A DNA stretch of 64,000 bases, from the NCBI GenBank assembly GCA_013288345.1, contig JABDCA010000013.1, forward strand, positions 1 to 64,000, given 5' to 3'. Under the pieces are notes generated by a model. The model was not told the DNA's origin. It searched no databases and saw nothing but the letters and a program-made list of their open reading frames with translations. A program made the translations under genes and the position numbers. Numbering within the stretch: the stretch's first letter is position 1; every line of letters begins with the position of its first letter. The stretch is from Bacteroidota bacterium (GTDB lineage Bacteria; Bacteroidota; Bacteroidia; JABEUT01). Of the stretch, positions 1 to 13,640 are shown piece after piece.

Positions 1-789
1 TGTAAACTCAATAGGCGATAACCAGTTGGTTAAGAAATCGGCAGTGATACTTACAATAACATCAGCTTTATCAAATGAATAAGCCGGAATCATTGCTTTA
101 CCAAAAGAAGCTTCGTTTGCTTTCCTCATTCCAGAGAAAGAAACAGCATCCCATGTAATATGTTTTGCAGTTGAATATTTTTCAGTAAAATCAGCTATTA
201 TTTTTTTGGTAGAAGGGCTTATAATGGTAGATGTAAGTATCCTTATGTTTCCACCTTTTGCAGCAACATCAGTTAACTTAGCTGTAATTTCTTTATCTAC
301 ATTTTCCCAGGTTGCTTTTTTACTTCCGATCTGAGGATTTTTTAACCTTTCGGAATTATATAATGATAAAACAGAAGCTTGTACCCTTGCATTAGCAGCG
401 CCCATGGTAACAGGCGATTTTGGGTTACCTTCTATTTTAATTGGCCTGCCATCGCGGGTTTTAACCAACACGCTGCAATAATCTTGTCCATCGAAATAAG
501 TAGAAGCATACCAGTTGTCAATACCCGGAGTTACTTCTTCAGGCTTAATAACATAAGGAATAGTTTTTACTACCGGTGCCTCGCAAGCTGCCAATGAAGC
601 AGCAGCAACGCTAAAGCCAAGGTATTTCAAAAAATCCCTGCGCGAAGTAGAAGAAGTATTCAGGCCTTGTTTGCCTAAAAATTCATCAATAGGAACTTCC
701 TCTGCAAATTCTTTGTTCTTAGCTTTTACAAAACCCGGAGCCTCGGTTAATTCTTCGAGTCCTTTCCAGTATTTTTTTTCGTTTGCCAT
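1..789 (-). CDS. actB: Alternative complex III molybdopterin-oxidoreductase/Fe-S subunit ActB-like, N-terminal part (C-terminus off window)
   Basis: Manual reverse translation from ATG at 789: MANEKKYWKGLEELTEAPGFVKAKNKEFAEEVPIDEFLGKQGLNTSSTSRRDFLKYLGFSVAAASLAACEAPVVKTIPYVIKPEEVTPGIDNWYAST...; TAT-like RRDFLKYLGF signal; directly downstream of a multiheme ActA-like gene. Open at the window edge, so absent from the ORF track. Confidence 0.85.
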   Translation of the reverse strand, partial: MANEKKYWKGLEELTEAPGFVKAKNKEFAEEVPIDEFLGKQGLNTSSTSRRDFLKYLGFSVAAASLAACEAPVVKTIPYVIKPEEVTPGIDNWYASTYFDGQDYCSVLVKTRDGRPIKIEGNPKSPVTMGAANARVQASVLSLYNSERLKNPQIGSKKATWENVDKEITAKLTDVAAKGGNIRILTSTIISPSTKKIIADFTEKYSTAKHITWDAVSFSGMRKANEASFGKAMIPAYSFDKADVIVSITADFLTNWLSPIEFT

Positions 790-790
790 A

Positions 791-831
791 ATATGAGCTG
801 TTGGCTATTAGCTATTAGCTTTTAGCTGGTT
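791..831. repeat. Tandem 7-nt word array (AGCTATT-like) between actA and actB
   Basis: agctgtt|ggctatt|agctatt|agctttt|agctggt read directly. Confidence 0.75.
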
Positions 832-839
832 ATTATTTA

Positions 840-2108
840 TTAATAATGACATTTTCCGCATTCCAGTCCACCCATGTCGGCTTCGGTAACTTTCTTGTCT
901 TCGCCAAAGTTCTTTTTAATTGCCTGGTGAAGCTTGGTGTAGTAGCCATTGCCTTCCATTTGTACAGGGGTTTCGCGGTGACAGTTGATACACCATCCCA
1001 TGGTAAGCGGAGCAAACTGCTTGTCGGTAGTAAATGTTTTTACATCGCCGTGGCATTTTTCGCATTCTACTTTACCTACCACTACGTGTTGTGAGTGGTT
1101 AAAGTAAGCGAAGTCAGGAAGCGCATGAACGCGGTTCCACTGCACAGGGTGCGGAGGATTGGTATAATCTGCCTTAGCAGGATCCCATCCAACTGCATAA
1201 TATATTTTAGCAATTTCCTTTTGGTAATCAGGGTTTGAACCTTGTATACCTTTATGGCAGTTCATACACACATTAAGTGTAGGAATACCCGCTACTTTTC
1301 CTTTTTCAGCGCCCGAGTGGCAATACAAACAAGCAATAGCATTATCGCCTGCGTGTACTTTGTGCATAAAGTTAATAGGCTGCGAAGGCTGGTAACCCGG
1401 AGTTACGTCGATGCCCCATAAATATTCCCACCCGTAAACGGTAGAAACAGCGAAGAAGAAAATGCAGATAACTGCAAATTTTGTTTTGTGGTGATATATC
1501 CAATGCTTAATGTCTCCCCAAACGCCTCTTTCTTCAGTAGGTTTTTCTCCATCTTTTTGGTCAACTACTGTTTGTAATGATTTGCGAACGGTACGAAGTA
1601 CAGTTACAATAACTGCAAGGATACCTATTATAATAAGTATGCCCCAACCACCTCCGCCTTTCTTTTCGCCTGTACTTGTACCACCACCAGTTGCAACGGT
1701 TGTAGTATCAGGGCCAGGTGCTTTTGGCGGAGCAGCTATGTAAGCAATAACATCATCTATTTGAGCATCGGTCAATGTACCATCAAAAATGGTCATTGCA
1801 GTGCTGTTATTATCAGCGTAAACTTTGTTGGCGTATGCATCGCCCGATTTCCTGAGAGCGGCGTTGTTCTTTATCCATTTGTGCATCCACTCAGCAAAAG
1901 GCTGAGGTACCCTTTTGGTAACTCCATCCAAGCCGGGGCCCGTAATTTTGTTTGTCCCCAAACTGTGGCAAAGCGCACAATTGGCTTTAAAGACTTTCTC
2001 CCCATTCGCGAGGTCTGCAGCATGTAATAAATTAGGAGAAGCGAGCGTAAGAACAAACGCGAGGAAAGCTACTAACGACTTCTGTAGCTTTTTACAAGGC
2101 ATATTCAT
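840..2108 (-). CDS. actA: Multiheme cytochrome c, alternative complex III ActA-like with N-terminal monoheme cytochrome c domain
   Basis: Six CxxCH motifs (CALCH, CLYCH, CMNCH, CEKCH, CINCH, CGKCH). N-terminal cytochrome c class I domain, internal TM helices, C-terminal multiheme domain. ORF extends to 2171 but MNMPCKKLQKSLVAFLAF at 2108 is a more plausible start. Confidence 0.85.
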   Translation of the reverse strand: MNMPCKKLQKSLVAFLAFVLTLASPNLLHAADLANGEKVFKANCALCHSLGTNKITGPGLDGVTKRVPQPFAEWMHKWIKNNAALRKSGDAYANKVYADNNSTAMTIFDGTLTDAQIDDVIAYIAAPPKAPGPDTTTVATGGGTSTGEKKGGGGWGILIIIGILAVIVTVLRTVRKSLQTVVDQKDGEKPTEERGVWGDIKHWIYHHKTKFAVICIFFFAVSTVYGWEYLWGIDVTPGYQPSQPINFMHKVHAGDNAIACLYCHSGAEKGKVAGIPTLNVCMNCHKGIQGSNPDYQKEIAKIYYAVGWDPAKADYTNPPHPVQWNRVHALPDFAYFNHSQHVVVGKVECEKCHGDVKTFTTDKQFAPLTMGWCINCHRETPVQMEGNGYYTKLHQAIKKNFGEDKKVTEADMGGLECGKCHY

Positions 2109-2222
2109 ATATAGGAGTAATTTTTTTCTAATCGCCGCCAAAGGTAAAAGAAAATTACAATTCCGTGACAAAAATTTTAACAGTTTTTTAACGTATTTTT
2201 CACCTCGTTCGTCGCTCCCCTT

Positions 2223-2843
2223 TTAAGCCATAGGAATGGCCTTCAACTCATATCCTTCACTTGCTAGAAATTCAAGCGATTTAGGGAGTAAATGGGGTAT
2301 CTTATCTTTGGCCTTTATACTATCATGAAAAACGATAATTGAACCCGGCCGGGTGTATCGTTTTACTAAATCGAAGCAGTTTTCGGCACTTAACTCCTTA
2401 TCATAGTCCATACTCAGCACATCCCAAAAAATCATTTTGTATTCTTTCTTAAGCCGCCTGAATTGTTTCAACATTATCCTGCCGTATGGTGGCCTGAATA
2501 AATTGGACTTAACTACCCCCGCACATTTATTTACATTATCGGTATATTCCTTCACCGAACTCCTCCAACCATCAATATGGTTAAAGGTATGATTGCCGAA
2601 GGAATGGCCTTCGCTTATTATACGCTGAAATACATCGGGGTGCTTTTGCACATTATCGCCTACACAAAAAAAAGTGGCTTTGGCCTTGTATTCTTTTAAA
2701 ATGTCAAGCACTAAAGGAGTCGCCTCGGGTATCGGGCCATCATCGAAGGTGAGGTAAACTATTTTTTTGTCTTTGTCAGGAATCCTGAAAACGCCCCCGG
2801 GATATAATACTTCTGCTATGCGTGGGATTCTTGCTTTAGACAT
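2223..2843 (-). CDS. Polysaccharide deacetylase family protein (NodB homology domain)
   Basis: VYLTFDDGPIPEATPLVLDIL, ATFFCVGDN, GHSFGNHTFNH, FRPPYGR motifs. Confidence 0.92.
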   Translation of the reverse strand: MSKARIPRIAEVLYPGGVFRIPDKDKKIVYLTFDDGPIPEATPLVLDILKEYKAKATFFCVGDNVQKHPDVFQRIISEGHSFGNHTFNHIDGWRSSVKEYTDNVNKCAGVVKSNLFRPPYGRIMLKQFRRLKKEYKMIFWDVLSMDYDKELSAENCFDLVKRYTRPGSIIVFHDSIKAKDKIPHLLPKSLEFLASEGYELKAIPMA

Positions 2844-2856
2844 CAGTTCTCATTTT

Positions 2857-2892
2857 ACCACTTAGACACTAAGAACATTTAGTTTCACTAAG
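2857..2892. repeat. Left 36-nt inverted repeat flanking the GxxExxY gene
   Basis: accacttagacactaagaacatttagtttcactaag; 26/36 identical to the reverse complement of 3311-3346. Confidence 0.8.
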
Positions 2893-2896
2893 ATAA

Positions 2897-3307
2897 TTAT
2901 TGTTTAGCAAGTTTAGAAAATTCTGCTGTTACCAGCGGCACCAATTGTTCAGTTATATTCTCACAATGAAAATTTATAAGAAGCCCCTTGGGCTTTCCAC
3001 TAAGCTTTAAATAGGATAATAATTGAGCCTCATAAAGTGGAATCATAATTTCAACAGCTTTTAGCTCTACTATTATCAGATCATTCACCAACAAATCCAA
3101 CTTTAACATTCCACCTAAGTCTTTATTCTTGTATTGAACTGGAACATATACTTGAGATTGAACTGAAAACCCGTTATTCTTTATTTCATCTATGAGGCAT
3201 GCCTCATAGACTGATTCCAATAAACCCGGGCCAAGATGTTTGTGCACTTCAATAGCCGAACCAACTATTTTGTAAGCAATATCGTTAATATATTTCTGCG
3301 TAACCAT
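2897..3307 (-). CDS. GxxExxY protein (PD-(D/E)XK nuclease-like family of unknown function)
   Basis: IVGSAIEVHKHLGPGLLESVYEACLIDEI...LKLDLLVNDLIIVELKAVE: GxxExxY signature and nuclease-like D...ELK. Confidence 0.92.
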   Translation of the reverse strand: MVTQKYINDIAYKIVGSAIEVHKHLGPGLLESVYEACLIDEIKNNGFSVQSQVYVPVQYKNKDLGGMLKLDLLVNDLIIVELKAVEIMIPLYEAQLLSYLKLSGKPKGLLINFHCENITEQLVPLVTAEFSKLAKQ

Positions 3308-3310
3308 TGG

Positions 3311-3346
3311 CTTAGTGTTTCTTAGTGGACTCAGTGCCTTAGTGGT
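3311..3346. repeat. Right 36-nt inverted repeat flanking the GxxExxY gene
   Basis: cttagtgtttcttagtggactcagtgccttagtggt; see 2857-2892. Confidence 0.8.
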
Positions 3347-3358
3347 TATTCTAGCATT

Positions 3359-4735
3359 TTATATCCACTGTAGTATCAGATCGGGGAAGAGTCCGAGTAA
3401 AATGGTAAGCAGTGTAGTGATGAATAAAACAGTACGGTGCAGTCCCCCAACAGTAATAGGTATGCTCGATTGTTCCGGCTTAAAGTAAACTGCAATAATT
3501 ACTCTGAAATAATAAAACACTCCGATTAGTGCAGCTATAACAGCAAGCAATACCAGGCCGGTGTTATGTGTGGCAATAGCATTCTGGAAGATGTAATATT
3601 TACCAAAGAAACCGGCTGTAGGCGGAATACCTGCTAGCGACAGCATAGCCACCACCATTACAAAACTTAAAAACGGATTTGTTTTGGCAAGGCCCTCAAA
3701 TGCGCCAAAGTCTTCTCTGCCTGAATTACGCGCCACCATATAAAGCACCGTAAATGCAGTAATAGTAGATATAGAATAGGTAAGTGTATAATAAAGTATA
3801 GCGCGGCCCGAAGCATCACCATTCATAGATACGATGGCAATAGCAAGGTAGCCGGCATGTGCAATGCTTGAATAAGCAAGCATACGCTTTACACTGTTTT
3901 GGCGTACTGCAGTAATATTGGCAATAAAGAGTGTAAGTACTACTATCCACCACAATACATTTGCCCATTGCGAAATCATATCAGGGAAGCAGATATAGAA
4001 CAAGCGGAAGAAAGCGCCGAAGGCGGCAGTCTTTACCACTGTGGCCATATAGGCAGTTACAGGTGTTGGTGCTCCGTCGTATACATCGGGTGCCCAAAAA
4101 TGGAAAGGAACCAAAGATGCTTTAAAGCAAAGCCCAACCAGTAATAATAATATGCCTATCAGCACCATACCCGGTTGTTGGTGTGTAGCTATGCTTTGCT
4201 GTATGGTATGTAAATCGAACGAACCCGATACACCATAAATGAGTGTGATACCAAAAAGTAAAAAGCCGGTTGCAAAGGACCCCATCAGGAAATATTTGAA
4301 GCCCGCTTCGTTAGAAAGTATGTTGCCCTTATCGCTTGCTGCAAGTACATAGGCCGAGAGTGATAATATTTCAATACCCAGGAAAAGCATGGTAAGGTTA
4401 TTATACGAAACCATAGATACCGCACCTACCAATGAAAATATTACCAATGCAAAATGATCGGTTGCACTGGTCTCTTGCAAAAAGTAATTACGCGCCATCA
4501 TAAACCATAAAAAGGCAATGATGATTATAGAACGCGAGAATGCAATAGCATAATGGTTAAAGTCCAACATACTGCTGAACCATGGCTGCGGATTTGAATT
4601 ATAATCGGCTGAAGTAAAATAGAAAGCCGCGGCAAGGCCCACAAGGATAACAGGGAACAAGCCTTTACGGAAACGTAATATCTGCGCGAAGAGCGTCAGT
4701 ATACCAAGACCAGAAAGTATTATCAGAGTTATCAT
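3359..4735 (-). CDS. nuoN: NADH-quinone oxidoreductase subunit N
   Basis: Proton-conducting antiporter-like membrane protein (FKASLVPFHFWAPDVYDGAPTPVTAYMATVVKTAAF), last gene of the nuo run. Confidence 0.95.
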   Translation of the reverse strand: MITLIILSGLGILTLFAQILRFRKGLFPVILVGLAAAFYFTSADYNSNPQPWFSSMLDFNHYAIAFSRSIIIIAFLWFMMARNYFLQETSATDHFALVIFSLVGAVSMVSYNNLTMLFLGIEILSLSAYVLAASDKGNILSNEAGFKYFLMGSFATGFLLFGITLIYGVSGSFDLHTIQQSIATHQQPGMVLIGILLLLVGLCFKASLVPFHFWAPDVYDGAPTPVTAYMATVVKTAAFGAFFRLFYICFPDMISQWANVLWWIVVLTLFIANITAVRQNSVKRMLAYSSIAHAGYLAIAIVSMNGDASGRAILYYTLTYSISTITAFTVLYMVARNSGREDFGAFEGLAKTNPFLSFVMVVAMLSLAGIPPTAGFFGKYYIFQNAIATHNTGLVLLAVIAALIGVFYYFRVIIAVYFKPEQSSIPITVGGLHRTVLFITTLLTILLGLFPDLILQWI

Positions 4736-4752
4736 AGTTTCAGTTCGTTCCT

Positions 4753-6195
4753 TTAATTACCACTTAACAATTTCGTTACGGCAGGTTCACTCACCTTCAA
4801 AAATATATTTGGCCAAATACCAATTACAATCACCATTATAAGTAACGGAATAAGTACTGCTTTTTCGTTCGGGGTAAGGTCAAGGAATTTTTCGGTTTCT
4901 ACCGAAGTTTCTCCTAATGTGGTACGCTGGTAAGTACGGAACATATATACAGCGCCTAATATTATAGTAAAGCCACCTACCACTGCCATAACCGGTTTGT
5001 AAATATAAATTCCGTTGATGAGTAAAAACTCACCTACAAAACCATCGGTCAGCGGCAATGCTACTGCACCTAATGTAAGGATAAGAAATGCGGTTGCAAA
5101 GAAAGGAGCTTGTTGGCGTATGCCACCCATTGAACCAATTTTGCGGGTATTGGTGCGGCGCTGAAGAATATCTACAATAAAGAATAAGCCCACCACATTT
5201 ATACCGTGGCTGAGCATTTGTATAATACCACCCTGTACACCAATTGCATTACCTGCAAATACACCGGCAGCTATTAGGCCAACGTGTGCGATAGATGAAT
5301 ACGCAATAAGTCGTTTTATATCGCTGCGGGTAATCGCTATAATAGAAGCATAAATTACACCAATGATTGCTAGCCACATAGCATAGTCGCCATACTGGCT
5401 TAAAGCCAAAGGTAGGGTTGGAAGTATCCAGCGGATCACTCCGTAAATACCCATTTTTAACATAATACCCGAAAGCAACATAGTGCCCTGTGTAGGCGCT
5501 TCAGTGTATGTATCGGGCTGCCAGGTATGTAAAGGGAATACTGGCATTTTAATACCAAATGCCAAAAAGAAGAACAGGAATAATATGCCTTGTGTAGGTG
5601 CATCGAGTGAACGGCCTGCTCTGTACAACTCACCAATTTCGAATGTATGTGATGCTGTGTGCAGGTATAAATACACCAATGCAACCAACATGAACAAACT
5701 ACCCGCAAGCGTATAGATGAAAAACTTAAGCGTTACCCTTACTCTATGTTCACCGCCCCAAAGCAGGCAGATAAAATAAATTGGAATAAGAGCCAACTCC
5801 CAGAAAATGTAAAAGAGAAAACCATCAAGGGAAACGAAAACACCGATGAGAGCCATTTCCATAAACAGGATGAGCGAATAGAAAACAGGTGTGCGTGTTT
5901 CGCTTTGCACTACCGAAAGAATAATAAGCGGAACTAAAAAGGTTGTAAGTAACACCATCAGCATAGATATACCATCCATACCAATTTTAAAATTAATGCC
6001 CAGTGAAGCTATCCATGGAATATTGGTTACATATTGGTAATCGCCCGAGGTTGGGAACTGCAGGAAAGTAACGAGGCAAAGCACAAATGTTATTAATGAT
6101 GCTGTAATAGCAAATCGTTTGCCATACTTGCGCGGAACGAACAACTGCGCAATGGCTGCAATTAAAGGAATGAGTATGAGTATTGCAGTCTGCAT
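4753..6195 (-). CDS. nuoM: NADH-quinone oxidoreductase subunit M
   Basis: FGIKMPVFPLHTWQPDTYTEAPTQGTMLLSGIMLKMGIYG; order L-M-N. Confidence 0.96.
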   Translation of the reverse strand: MQTAILILIPLIAAIAQLFVPRKYGKRFAITASLITFVLCLVTFLQFPTSGDYQYVTNIPWIASLGINFKIGMDGISMLMVLLTTFLVPLIILSVVQSETRTPVFYSLILFMEMALIGVFVSLDGFLFYIFWELALIPIYFICLLWGGEHRVRVTLKFFIYTLAGSLFMLVALVYLYLHTASHTFEIGELYRAGRSLDAPTQGILFLFFFLAFGIKMPVFPLHTWQPDTYTEAPTQGTMLLSGIMLKMGIYGVIRWILPTLPLALSQYGDYAMWLAIIGVIYASIIAITRSDIKRLIAYSSIAHVGLIAAGVFAGNAIGVQGGIIQMLSHGINVVGLFFIVDILQRRTNTRKIGSMGGIRQQAPFFATAFLILTLGAVALPLTDGFVGEFLLINGIYIYKPVMAVVGGFTIILGAVYMFRTYQRTTLGETSVETEKFLDLTPNEKAVLIPLLIMVIVIGIWPNIFLKVSEPAVTKLLSGN

Positions 6196-6198
6196 AAA

Positions 6199-8109
6199 TT
6201 ACATCATCTTAAAAAATATCATTAGCACTACTCCCACTACCATTACAAAAATGTAAAAGTCAACATTACCGGTTTGCAACTGACGCAATAAGCCGCCGGC
6301 CCAGTTCACAAAAGTGCCTGTCTTGTTTACAATACTATCTATAAACCTGCTTTCAACAATGCTTTCCAAAAAGCCGGAAATTCTATCTAATGGCTTGGTG
6401 ATGACTGCACTATAAATTTCATCTACATAATATTTGTGGTAAAGTAAATTTTGCACTGCAGGTAATTTTTGACTTTCAGGTACAGGAACTTCTTTGTTCT
6501 TGCTGTATTTCATATAGGCCCAGCTAATAAATAGAACAGCTGCAATTACGGCAACTATCATCAATGAAATTTCGGAAACTGAAGAAGAGCCTGTTTCGGC
6601 AGAAAACATTTTTATAGGTGAAGCAGAGAATACCGGTTCTAAAAATTCATCGATTCGGTTTGAACCACCCAGGAATGTAGGTATGCCTACAAAGCCACCA
6701 ATAGCAGAAAGCACTGCCAATACCATAAGTGGAACGGTCATGATTTTCGGAGATTCGTGTGCATGTACTTTATCGCCCCCACGGAAGCTACCCATAAATA
6801 CAAGGAAGTAAAGGCGGAACATATAGAAGGCAGTCATCATGGCGCCAACTAAACCTAAGAACCAGAATAATTTATTGGAAGCATACGCATGTGCCAGAAT
6901 ATCATCTTTCGAGAAGAAGCCCGAGAACGGAGGTATACCTGCAATAGCAAGTGTTCCTATTAAAAAGGTTATCCAAGTAATAGGCATTTTAGATTTCAGT
7001 CCACCCATTTTACGAATGTCCTGTTCGCCACCCAAACCATGTATTACACTACCAGCACCCAGGAACAACAGCGCTTTGAAGAAAGCGTGTGTCATTACGT
7101 GAAACACCGAAGATGAGAATGCACCTACACCAAGGGCAAGGAACATATAACCCAATTGGCTAACCGTAGAATAGGCCAGCACTTTTTTAATATCGTTTTG
7201 TGTGAGCGCAATAGTTGCAGCAAATACAAGTGTAATGGCTCCTGTTAATCCTACCACAAACATACTTGTTGGGGCAAGTGCATACAACACACCCGAACGC
7301 GCCACCATATAAATACCCGCGGTAACCATAGTTGCAGCATGTATAAGTGCCGATACAGGAGTCGGACCCGCCATTGCATCGGGCAGCCAGGTGTATAATG
7401 GTATTTGTGCGCTCTTACCCATTGCACCTACAAATAATAATAAGGTAATGGTTGTTATTACTGCATCGCCGGAGAAGAATCCGTTTGCATGCGAGAAGAC
7501 AGTTTTGTAATCGGTGCTGCCAAAGGTTTTAAATATCAGCAACATGCCGATTAAGAAACCAAGGTCACCAATACGGTTCATGATGAATGCTTTTTTAGCA
7601 GCATCGTTGTACGATTTATTTTTGAACCAGAAACCAATGAGCAAATAAGAACAAAGCCCTACACCTTCCCAACCTACAAACATGAGTAAGTAGCTGGAGC
7701 CCATAACGAGCATGAGCATAAAGAATATAAAGAGGTTGAGGTAAGCGAAGAAAATATTCTGGTTCTCATCGTCGTGCATGTAACCAACTGAGTAAACATG
7801 TATGAGGAAACCTACACCGGTAATTATGAGTAAGAATATAGACGAGAGCGGATCAATTAAAAAATTAAATGAAGCTTTAAAAGTTCCGGCAGTTATCCAA
7901 TCTGCAATATGCACTTCGGTAGCGCTTCCATCAGCAGGAAGGTTGAAGAATATGATAAGCGCAACAACAAAAGAAGCCAGCAAAGCGCCACAAGCAATTA
8001 AACCTGTAAGGCCTTTAGACAACCTTTTATTAAGCAAGGCAATAATTACAAACCCTATTAAAGGGAACAGTGGAATTAAGCCTGCCGTTTGTTGTATTAT
8101 ATCTTTCAT
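6199..8109 (-). CDS. nuoL: NADH-quinone oxidoreductase subunit L
   Basis: GWEGVGLCSYLLIGFWF, GKSAQIPLYTWLPDAMAGPTPVSALIHAATMVTAGIYM. Confidence 0.97.
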   Translation of the reverse strand: MKDIIQQTAGLIPLFPLIGFVIIALLNKRLSKGLTGLIACGALLASFVVALIIFFNLPADGSATEVHIADWITAGTFKASFNFLIDPLSSIFLLIITGVGFLIHVYSVGYMHDDENQNIFFAYLNLFIFFMLMLVMGSSYLLMFVGWEGVGLCSYLLIGFWFKNKSYNDAAKKAFIMNRIGDLGFLIGMLLIFKTFGSTDYKTVFSHANGFFSGDAVITTITLLLFVGAMGKSAQIPLYTWLPDAMAGPTPVSALIHAATMVTAGIYMVARSGVLYALAPTSMFVVGLTGAITLVFAATIALTQNDIKKVLAYSTVSQLGYMFLALGVGAFSSSVFHVMTHAFFKALLFLGAGSVIHGLGGEQDIRKMGGLKSKMPITWITFLIGTLAIAGIPPFSGFFSKDDILAHAYASNKLFWFLGLVGAMMTAFYMFRLYFLVFMGSFRGGDKVHAHESPKIMTVPLMVLAVLSAIGGFVGIPTFLGGSNRIDEFLEPVFSASPIKMFSAETGSSSVSEISLMIVAVIAAVLFISWAYMKYSKNKEVPVPESQKLPAVQNLLYHKYYVDEIYSAVITKPLDRISGFLESIVESRFIDSIVNKTGTFVNWAGGLLRQLQTGNVDFYIFVMVVGVVLMIFFKMM

Positions 8110-10589: not shown

Positions 10590-10599
10590 AATTAAATAC

Positions 10600-10704
10600 A
10601 AATATCGAATATCGAATATTGAACTCTGAATTTCGAAGTCACAAAAACCATCACGGCACTATTGTCTTTCATTTCGTTATTGGATATTCAGTATTCGATA
10701 TTGG
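10600..10704. repeat. Imperfect palindromic intergenic element (TCGAATA-word type)
   Basis: Left arm caaatatcgaatatcgaatattgaactctgaatttcgaagtcac; right arm is an inverted, diverged copy ending gttattggatattcagtattcgatattgg. Confidence 0.75.
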
Positions 10705-11691
10705 TTATTTCTGTTCTGGCTGATTTGATTCCGGTAATTTTTTAACAAGGTGTGCATGTCCCATCTTCAACTCTTTCAAATGCTCGTAATGGTTTTGTGC
10801 AATAACCGACTTGTCATCAATATGGGTTGGCTTTTCTATTACCCAGTCTGCTGTTTTCTTCTTATCGAAACGGCACTCGTTGCAGATAAAGTTCTCTACC
10901 TCATCGTTCTGGTCCTTGCGGGCCGATACTTTTAATATCTCTTCACCCTGGTACCATACAATAGCCTTACCGCAGCATTTTTTGCAATCGCGGTGGGCAT
11001 CCATTGGTTTCACGTTCCATATACGGCTTTTAAAGCGGAAGGTCCTGTCAGTCAGCGCACCCACAGGGCATACATCTATTACGTTACCCGAAAAATCGTT
11101 GCCTACTATATTCTGTATATAGGTACTTATTTCAGCCACATCACCACGATTCATTACGCCATGCACACGCTTGTCGGTAAGCTGTTCTGCCACGCGTACG
11201 CAACGGTAACAGAGTATGCAACGGGTCATAGTGAGTTTTATCTTATCACCTATATCTATCATTTCGAACTTGCGGCGGCCAAACTCATAACGAGTCTTTT
11301 CCAAGCCGTGTTCGTAACCTAAGTCTTGTAATTTACATTCGCCTGCCTGGTCGCATATAGGGCAATCTAACGGGTGGTTAATCAGCAGAAACTCAACCAC
11401 TCCCTTACGGGCTTCAAGTACTTCAGGTGAGGTCATGTTTTGTACCACCATACCATCTTGCACGGGGGTAGAACATGATACTACCAGTTTTGGCATAGGG
11501 CGGGGGTCTTTGGTAGAACCGGCTGCCACTTTTACGAGGCATGTACGGCAATAACCACCTGTTTGTTTGAGCTTGCTGTAATAACACATTGCAGGCGGAG
11601 CGGTCTTCCCTCCTATCATACGGGCAGCATTCAGTATAGTTGTACCGTCTGGTACTTCTATTTCAATGCCGTCGATGGTTACTTTAGCCAT
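10705..11691 (-). CDS. nuoG: NADH-quinone oxidoreductase subunit G, short form without molybdopterin domain
   Basis: CYYSKLKQTGGYCRTC 2Fe-2S ligands, HPLDCPICDQAGECKLQD, CILCYRCVRVAEQ; 328 aa. Confidence 0.9.
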   Translation of the reverse strand: MAKVTIDGIEIEVPDGTTILNAARMIGGKTAPPAMCYYSKLKQTGGYCRTCLVKVAAGSTKDPRPMPKLVVSCSTPVQDGMVVQNMTSPEVLEARKGVVEFLLINHPLDCPICDQAGECKLQDLGYEHGLEKTRYEFGRRKFEMIDIGDKIKLTMTRCILCYRCVRVAEQLTDKRVHGVMNRGDVAEISTYIQNIVGNDFSGNVIDVCPVGALTDRTFRFKSRIWNVKPMDAHRDCKKCCGKAIVWYQGEEILKVSARKDQNDEVENFICNECRFDKKKTADWVIEKPTHIDDKSVIAQNHYEHLKELKMGHAHLVKKLPESNQPEQK

Positions 11692-13522: not shown

Positions 13523-13640
13523 CCTCCCCCTTCCCCCTCCAGCGGGGGACAAAGAACTTTGCGGCCTTTGCGCCTTTGCGAGACGCATTTCGACAAGCTC
13601 AGTGTGACACTAAGCCCCTCCTTTGGAGGGGTTGGGGAGG
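13523..13640. repeat. Composite of four short dispersed-type repeats
   Basis: cctcccccttccccctccagcgggggac; ctttgcggcctttgcgcctttgcgag (9-nt words); tttcgacaagctcagtgtgacac; cccctcctttggaggggttggggagg, back to back. Confidence 0.7.

Follow-up and report, generated by a model that had tools for sequence, protein, structure and literature searches.

The window analysed here, a 64,000-nucleotide stretch of a Bacteroidota genome (G000; 3.0 Mb, 87% complete), raises the question of why a small gene of the GxxExxY family sits alone between nuoN and a polysaccharide deacetylase gene, tightly bracketed by repeats. A first-pass annotation had described the GxxExxY gene as the sole ORF between these neighbors, had noted inverted 36-nt arms of four CACTAAG-like words each, and had read the whole as a minimal mobile cassette, either self-mobilising or mobilised in trans. 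Both the lone ORF and the arms were confirmed, and the features of the locus are as follows.

2897-3307, minus strand: GxxExxY ORF, 136 aa (PF13366, E 3.7e-37; TIGR04256, E 6.5e-39)
2857-2892, plus strand: array 3' of the GxxExxY gene (right end), spacing 8-9-10, with the words CACTTAG (2859-2865), CACTAAG (2867-2873), CATTTAG (2876-2882) and CACTAAG (2886-2892)
3311-3346, minus strand: array 5' of the GxxExxY gene (left end), inverted relative to the right-end array, spacing 8-9-10, with the words CACTAAG (3338-3344), CACTGAG (3330-3336), CACTAAG (3321-3327) and CACTAAG (3311-3317)
2838-3353, no strand: whole inserted unit, 516 nt, missing where sister genome G006 has the syntenic nuoN-deacetylase junction
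2851-2857, minus strand: candidate direct repeat TAAAATG outside the right end; weak, AT-rich, 1-nt overlap with the arm
3355-3361, minus strand: candidate direct repeat TAAAATG outside the left end; weak, includes the nuoN stop codon
2223-2843, minus strand: polysaccharide deacetylase (flanking gene; PF01522), a conserved nuoN neighbor in G003 and G006
3359-4735, minus strand: nuoN (flanking gene; TIGR01770)
13557-13580, minus strand: solo array of another class, three CGCAAAG words, spacing 8-9, no gene attached

The right array lies 4 nt past the stop codon and the left array 3 nt ahead of the start codon. The two arms, which a general repeat finder run on the locus missed, are identical at 26 of 36 positions. 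Dinucleotide shuffling of the 60-nt flanks, repeated 600 times, never gave more than 22. With at most 3 mismatches, the four-word 8-9-10 layout occurs 21 times in the G000 genome, and the reversed control pattern not once. The TAAAATG pair is only suggestive as a candidate target duplication at this cassette. At 10590-10740 of the window, about 120 nt missing from G006 include an inverted repeat of another kind (AATATCGAATATCGAATATTGAAC ... TATTCAGTATTCGATATTGG), and the hairpin in locus L244 is flanked by a similar motif; the repeat is perhaps a second dispersed family of the window's genome.

We consider it fairly probable that the locus belongs, as a single copy, to a selfish DNA system that is widespread, has two parts and is organised like REP/RAYT. 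One part would be the cassette, in which a GxxExxY nuclease gene is enclosed by inverted word arrays acting as the ends of the unit. The other would be gene-less units dispersed in intergenic DNA, each made of the same two arrays opposed over a short loop. The main rivals to this two-part system are homing to fixed sites and mobilisation by an enzyme encoded elsewhere.

To see the locus against its family, we scored 122 GxxExxY loci from many phyla, including 80 named loci and 29 further Bacteroidota loci. The named loci represent the Bacteroidota, Planctomycetota, Acidobacteriota, Proteobacteria, Chloroflexi, Verrucomicrobia and Ignavibacteria, with one Methanosarcinales contig as the archaeal occurrence. 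A GxxExxY gene is present in 101 of 198 sampled Bacteroidota genomes. The inverted-repeat score was a local alignment of the upstream flank with the reverse complement of the downstream flank. A score of at least 15 was reached by 83.6% of the 122 loci, compared with 6.5% of 616 other ORFs of these loci and 13.9% of swapped flank pairs; raising the threshold to 20 gave 59.8%, 0.65% and 2.5%, respectively. De novo word finding recovered a single word shared by both arms, two or more times in each, at 80 of the 122 loci and in 2 of 470 control windows, usually with one spacing vector common to both arms. By either measure the repeats are far from equally frequent beside unrelated genes. Clear inverted arrays were wanting in about 16% of the 122 loci.

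The enrichment of inverted arrays, which the first-pass annotation had proposed to look for with CACTAAG in Bacteroidota, extends over several phyla, with words varying well beyond CACTAAG. Spacing vectors included 8-8, 9-9, 9-10, 8-9-10, 8-8-10, 9-9-10, 10-11-10, 9-11-9 and 10-13-10. G000 itself encodes two GxxExxY genes besides that of the window, both inside inverted arrays, with the words CACAGAT (spacing 9-10) and CACAGAG (8/9-9-10). Nearly all of the roughly fifteen GxxExxY genes in 11 members of its genus are likewise bracketed, by arms built from CACTAAG, CACAGAT, CACAGAG, CGCWGAT, CGCAAAG, CACGGAT, CACNAAA or CACGGAG. Bracketing by word arrays is a family-wide trait of GxxExxY, and both word and spacing are specific to the clade.

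Word and spacing, together the grammar of an array, follow the protein lineage. We counted label changes on a tree of 122 proteins and compared them with 1000 label shuffles; the tree is short (133 columns) with many open forks, and the clade statements rest on its better supported branches. The first spacing changed 19 times compared with 40.3 in shuffles (minimum 31), the seventh letter of the word 10 times compared with 22.0, and the whole word 56 times compared with 71.1. For most measures 0 of 1000 shuffles did as well, and for the third letter 3 of 1000. G000, G009 and G010 each have three cassettes of differing grammar, and each grammar fits its own protein clade. The GxxExxY gene and the repeat co-evolve.

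If the cassette is mobile, related genomes should differ by its presence, and the first-pass annotation had proposed a search of sister genomes for empty nuoN-deacetylase sites. They exist. Window positions 5-2837 and 3354-6573 align contiguously with G006 (L265, 13930-16723 and 16726-19953), the 516-nt segment between them being missing, and in G003 the deacetylase likewise lies directly behind nuoN. The second and third G000 cassettes are missing from the same gene junctions in one and seven relatives, so that presence and absence at the cassette boundary were seen for all three. Genes of the window's clade sit at other places in G009 and G010; in the latter (L151), a different gene (MTVKECVLNILKNEPNLSNQEIADKV...) sits behind nuoN.

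The most complete series comes from the genus of G180, at the junction of a methionine aminopeptidase gene (map) and a methyltransferase gene, both named from translations only. Among 28 genomes the map site was empty in 10, held cassette A in 9, cassette B in 6 and remnants in 3. Cassette B has a GxxExxY quite unlike that of A, and other words. In one remnant (L332) an apparent internal deletion left arrays and the gene end. On the flank tree of the 28 genomes these states change at least 13 times. At fixed sites the cassette is therefore gained, lost, replaced and left to decay as a unit. The 18 closest relatives of cassette B, found among 121 genomes, are all at that one map site, suggesting that transposition of the gene is rare or site-directed; frequent transposition of cassette B to new sites was not seen. 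The reading as a minimal mobile cassette thus stands as far as a unit of gain and loss is concerned, and free self-transposition is rarer than it implied. In L306 and L324, the site that has lost cassette A contains a further palindrome (CCTGCAAGGTTTTCAAAACCTTGTAGG with its inverse), which probably belongs to a distinct repeat family of the G180 genus.

Such fidelity to a site is what a homing-like selfish nuclease would show. It would cut the empty allele at one cognate site, host recombination would copy the cassette in, and decay and loss would follow; the arrays would be recombination or regulatory ends instead of transposition ends. The map site, with its empty, intact A, intact B, broken and deleted states and their repeated changes, is consistent with this, as are the confinement of cassette B to one site in 18 genomes and a cassette at the nuoJ-nuoK junction that is common to three species and absent in five. 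However, empty sites are without any array, and the window's clade occupies different sites within one genus. A homing endonuclease cassette with one cognate site is thus matched by cassette B in one genus, but not by the window's clade. Homing would also leave unexplained both the grammar that follows the protein and the dozens of dispersed gene-less array pairs described below, and we think it unlikely.

The company of arrays and genes was compared across genomes, many of which are metagenome assemblies and some incomplete. Within the genus, counts of 8-9-10 arrays are highest in the three members that encode a gene of the window's clade (21, 17 and 13, compared with 0-11 in the others; exact p 0.006). 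Among 198 Bacteroidota genomes, 26 of the 27 bearing CACAGAG arrays also encode a GxxExxY (base rate 101/198; p 6e-8), though two of the 27 (G048 and G201) resemble plain tandem repeats. Around the GxxExxY genes of other phyla (52 loci, 390 kb) there were 26 solo arrays of the locus's own grammar compared with 1.6 for the grammars of other loci. CRCNGAT arrays are the exception: G000 has the most (54), but its assembly, 87% complete, yielded no gene of the matching clade. An unusual local amplification was seen in G134 (C1:1636990-1681541), where 45 kb contain many array copies, CACAGAGTAGCACAGAGTACACACAGAG and its relatives, all in one direction.

Cases of this kind are what would be expected if the arrays were ends for some other recombinase encoded elsewhere, with GxxExxY a passenger or accessory factor. 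Gene-less hairpins occur where no matching-clade gene was found, of the CRCNGAT class in G000 and G007 and of the CACAGAG class in G166. Yet it is the GxxExxY tree that the grammar tracks across phyla, it is a GxxExxY that 26 of 27 array-bearing genomes encode, and no gene but GxxExxY lies between the arms. Mobilisation by another enzyme is accordingly quite unlikely in our judgement.

The gene-less copies fit the option of mobilisation in trans that the first-pass annotation had raised. The 54 matches to the CRCNGAT 9-9-10 pattern in G000 (reversed control, 0) are mostly inward-facing pairs about 3 nt apart. We read 38 paired elements of both classes with their flanks. Elements of the CRCNGAT class share a core of uniform length, about 73 nt, with extended ends AATRGAA...TTCYATT, and five sampled hairpins folded as DNA with z-scores of -3.5 to -7.3. 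Elements lie outside ORFs in 36 of 40 cases, and random windows from the same stretches do so in 15% (85% inside). The hairpins are polar: 25 of 27 elements pair an arm of type X with an arm of type Y. Complementarity between an element's own arms is 22.9/35 compared with 25.2/35 for swapped arms, so that each element was copied from a polar founder and did not arise from two independent sites. This lower value, which comes from every element having an X and a Y arm, also led us to reject selection for perfect hairpin pairing. In cassette L027 of G002 the gene starts beside X and ends beside Y. Target duplications gave no signal in the 38 elements (mean longest repeat 3.26 vs. 3.37 shuffled). 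One element is inserted into another in L243 (G000:C6:1964-4150), where at about 1001-1187 a CCACAGATTCACAGATT palindrome lies in the loop of a CRCNGAT hairpin.

That the elements are intergenic and the hairpins fold well would also suit a regulatory role, with the arrays an operator, attenuator or terminator-like structure that autoregulates the gene and a scattered regulon, and in some loci (e.g. L028) the upstream arm is at or over the start codon. Regulation does not account for whole units coming and going with both arms, for the founder polarity kept in the hairpins, or for the nesting in L243, and we find it very improbable. A chance or compositional artefact of AT-rich intergenic DNA has a negligible probability, as the shuffle and reversed-pattern controls were at or near zero and GC-rich words also form arrays (CGCCGAG in the Gemmatimonadaceae locus L087).

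The window protein passes the family cut-offs (PF13366, 127.7 bits with a cut-off of 22; TIGR04256, 132.9 bits with a cut-off of 35), and in an alignment of 71 GxxExxY sequences a full PD-(D/E)XK active site is invariant (E31, D71, E81-x-K83, Q95), with Y99 conserved at 90%. An AF2 model of the window protein (pLDDT 96.4) resembles in Foldseek Cas4 SSO0001 (4ic1; probability up to 1.0) and lambda exonuclease (6m9k and 1avq; 0.92-0.99), with E-values of only about 0.01. Weak Cas4 profile matches were present in 41 of the 71 members. A sequence search for solved homologues returned none. From the model, GxxExxY is predicted to be a small PD-(D/E)XK nuclease of the Cas4/RecB/lambda-exonuclease type. 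At 136 aa it has little room for a separate DNA-binding domain, which counts against our preferred reading.

Like Cas4, RecB-type nucleases and lambda exonuclease, GxxExxY has the predicted fold, the D..ExK..QxxxY residues and the weak Cas4 profile matches. Unlike Cas4, it is much shorter, has no invariant or near-invariant cysteine in the 71-sequence alignment that could serve an Fe-S cluster, and at the window locus has no CRISPR context. In one published case a GxxExxY gene beside a CRISPR-associated reverse transcriptase (RT-Cas1) was labelled cas4 by CRISPRone (PMC8934634, section 12), and surveys may confuse the two. Rpn/YhgA (transposase_31) proteins, also of the PD-(D/E)XK nuclease family, have been tied to DNA mobility (PMC5350276; preprint PMC10327210). 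They belong to a different Pfam family, PF04754, to which the window protein has no match.

Two other roles were considered and rejected. As an anti-phage defence protein the window protein found no significant PADLOC profile (best E only 0.012). Carriage by plasmids or phages is not indicated, with matches in 6 of 72,556 plasmids and 0 of 50,697 phages at the sensitivity used and none in PHROGs.

The closest parallel is the REP/REPIN and RAYT (TnpA-REP) system (Nunvar 2010, PMC2817692; Bertels and Rainey 2011, PMC3116915; Corneloup 2021, PMC8266576). There the gene is always between two inverted repeats that co-evolve with it, cognate repeats are abundant where the gene is present, and inverted doublets are the dispersed unit. 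Similarly, the GxxExxY gene lies between two inverted repeats, its arrays co-evolve with it, and its gene-less inverted doublets are intergenic, dispersed and hairpin-forming. The likeness in abundance is partial, as array number follows the cognate gene for the 8-9-10 and CACAGAG classes but not for CRCNGAT in G000. Unlike RAYTs, which are HUH Y1 transposases related to IS200/IS605, the protein matches only PF13366 and has a PD-(D/E)XK fold. Where a REP is a palindrome of 20-40 nt tagged GTAG/CGTC, the GxxExxY unit is an array of three to four spaced 7-nt words, and the spacing itself is clade-specific. By analogy, the GxxExxY system would work like REP/RAYT without being a member of it; enzyme and repeat architecture are unrelated. 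Like MITEs and insertion sequences with terminal inverted repeats, short gene-less copies share their ends with the gene-bearing unit, and L332 resembles an internal-deletion derivative; unlike them, GxxExxY units have neither a DDE transposase nor, in the 38 elements, a consistent target duplication.

How such a system might work can be outlined. Nuclease protomers would bind an array, one per word, and each clade would read its own word and spacing. The spacing of 8-11 nt is near one helical turn, suggesting that the protomers, one to each word, would line up along a single DNA face. The two inverted arms would then be brought together, in hairpins possibly as a folded single strand, an intermediate that the hairpins suggest. 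Cutting or trimming at the array ends would lead to loss of the unit or to its copying into another intergenic position, with no regular duplication of the target. The gene copy itself would mostly stay put at the few sites that tolerate it, as a rule directly after a stop codon and oriented with the operon. Cassettes are co-directional with both neighbors in 79% of cases, compared with 48% of control ORFs, and are never antisense to both, which fits read-through expression with selection, or an insertion preference. The gene would probably be expressed by read-through and serve the hairpins in trans.

We give about even odds to a bolder reading, in which a stand-alone PD-(D/E)XK nuclease, devoid of known transposase chemistry, reads modular arrays by a clade-specific code of word and spacing and so spreads its own gene and swarms of gene-less hairpins in the chromosomes of many bacterial phyla. 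If so, such elements would be a source of many unexplained short repeats in environmental genomes. In the open-access literature searched by family name and repeat sequence we found no description of the association of arrays with GxxExxY, which was mentioned only in passing. The link to the arrays gives the GxxExxY family a testable function and may explain many scattered intergenic repeats. It would mean that the REP/RAYT way of life arose a second time, independently and on the basis of a different enzyme, and the natural variety of words and spacings, set against protein sequence, is a ready data set on how a very small nuclease may read DNA.
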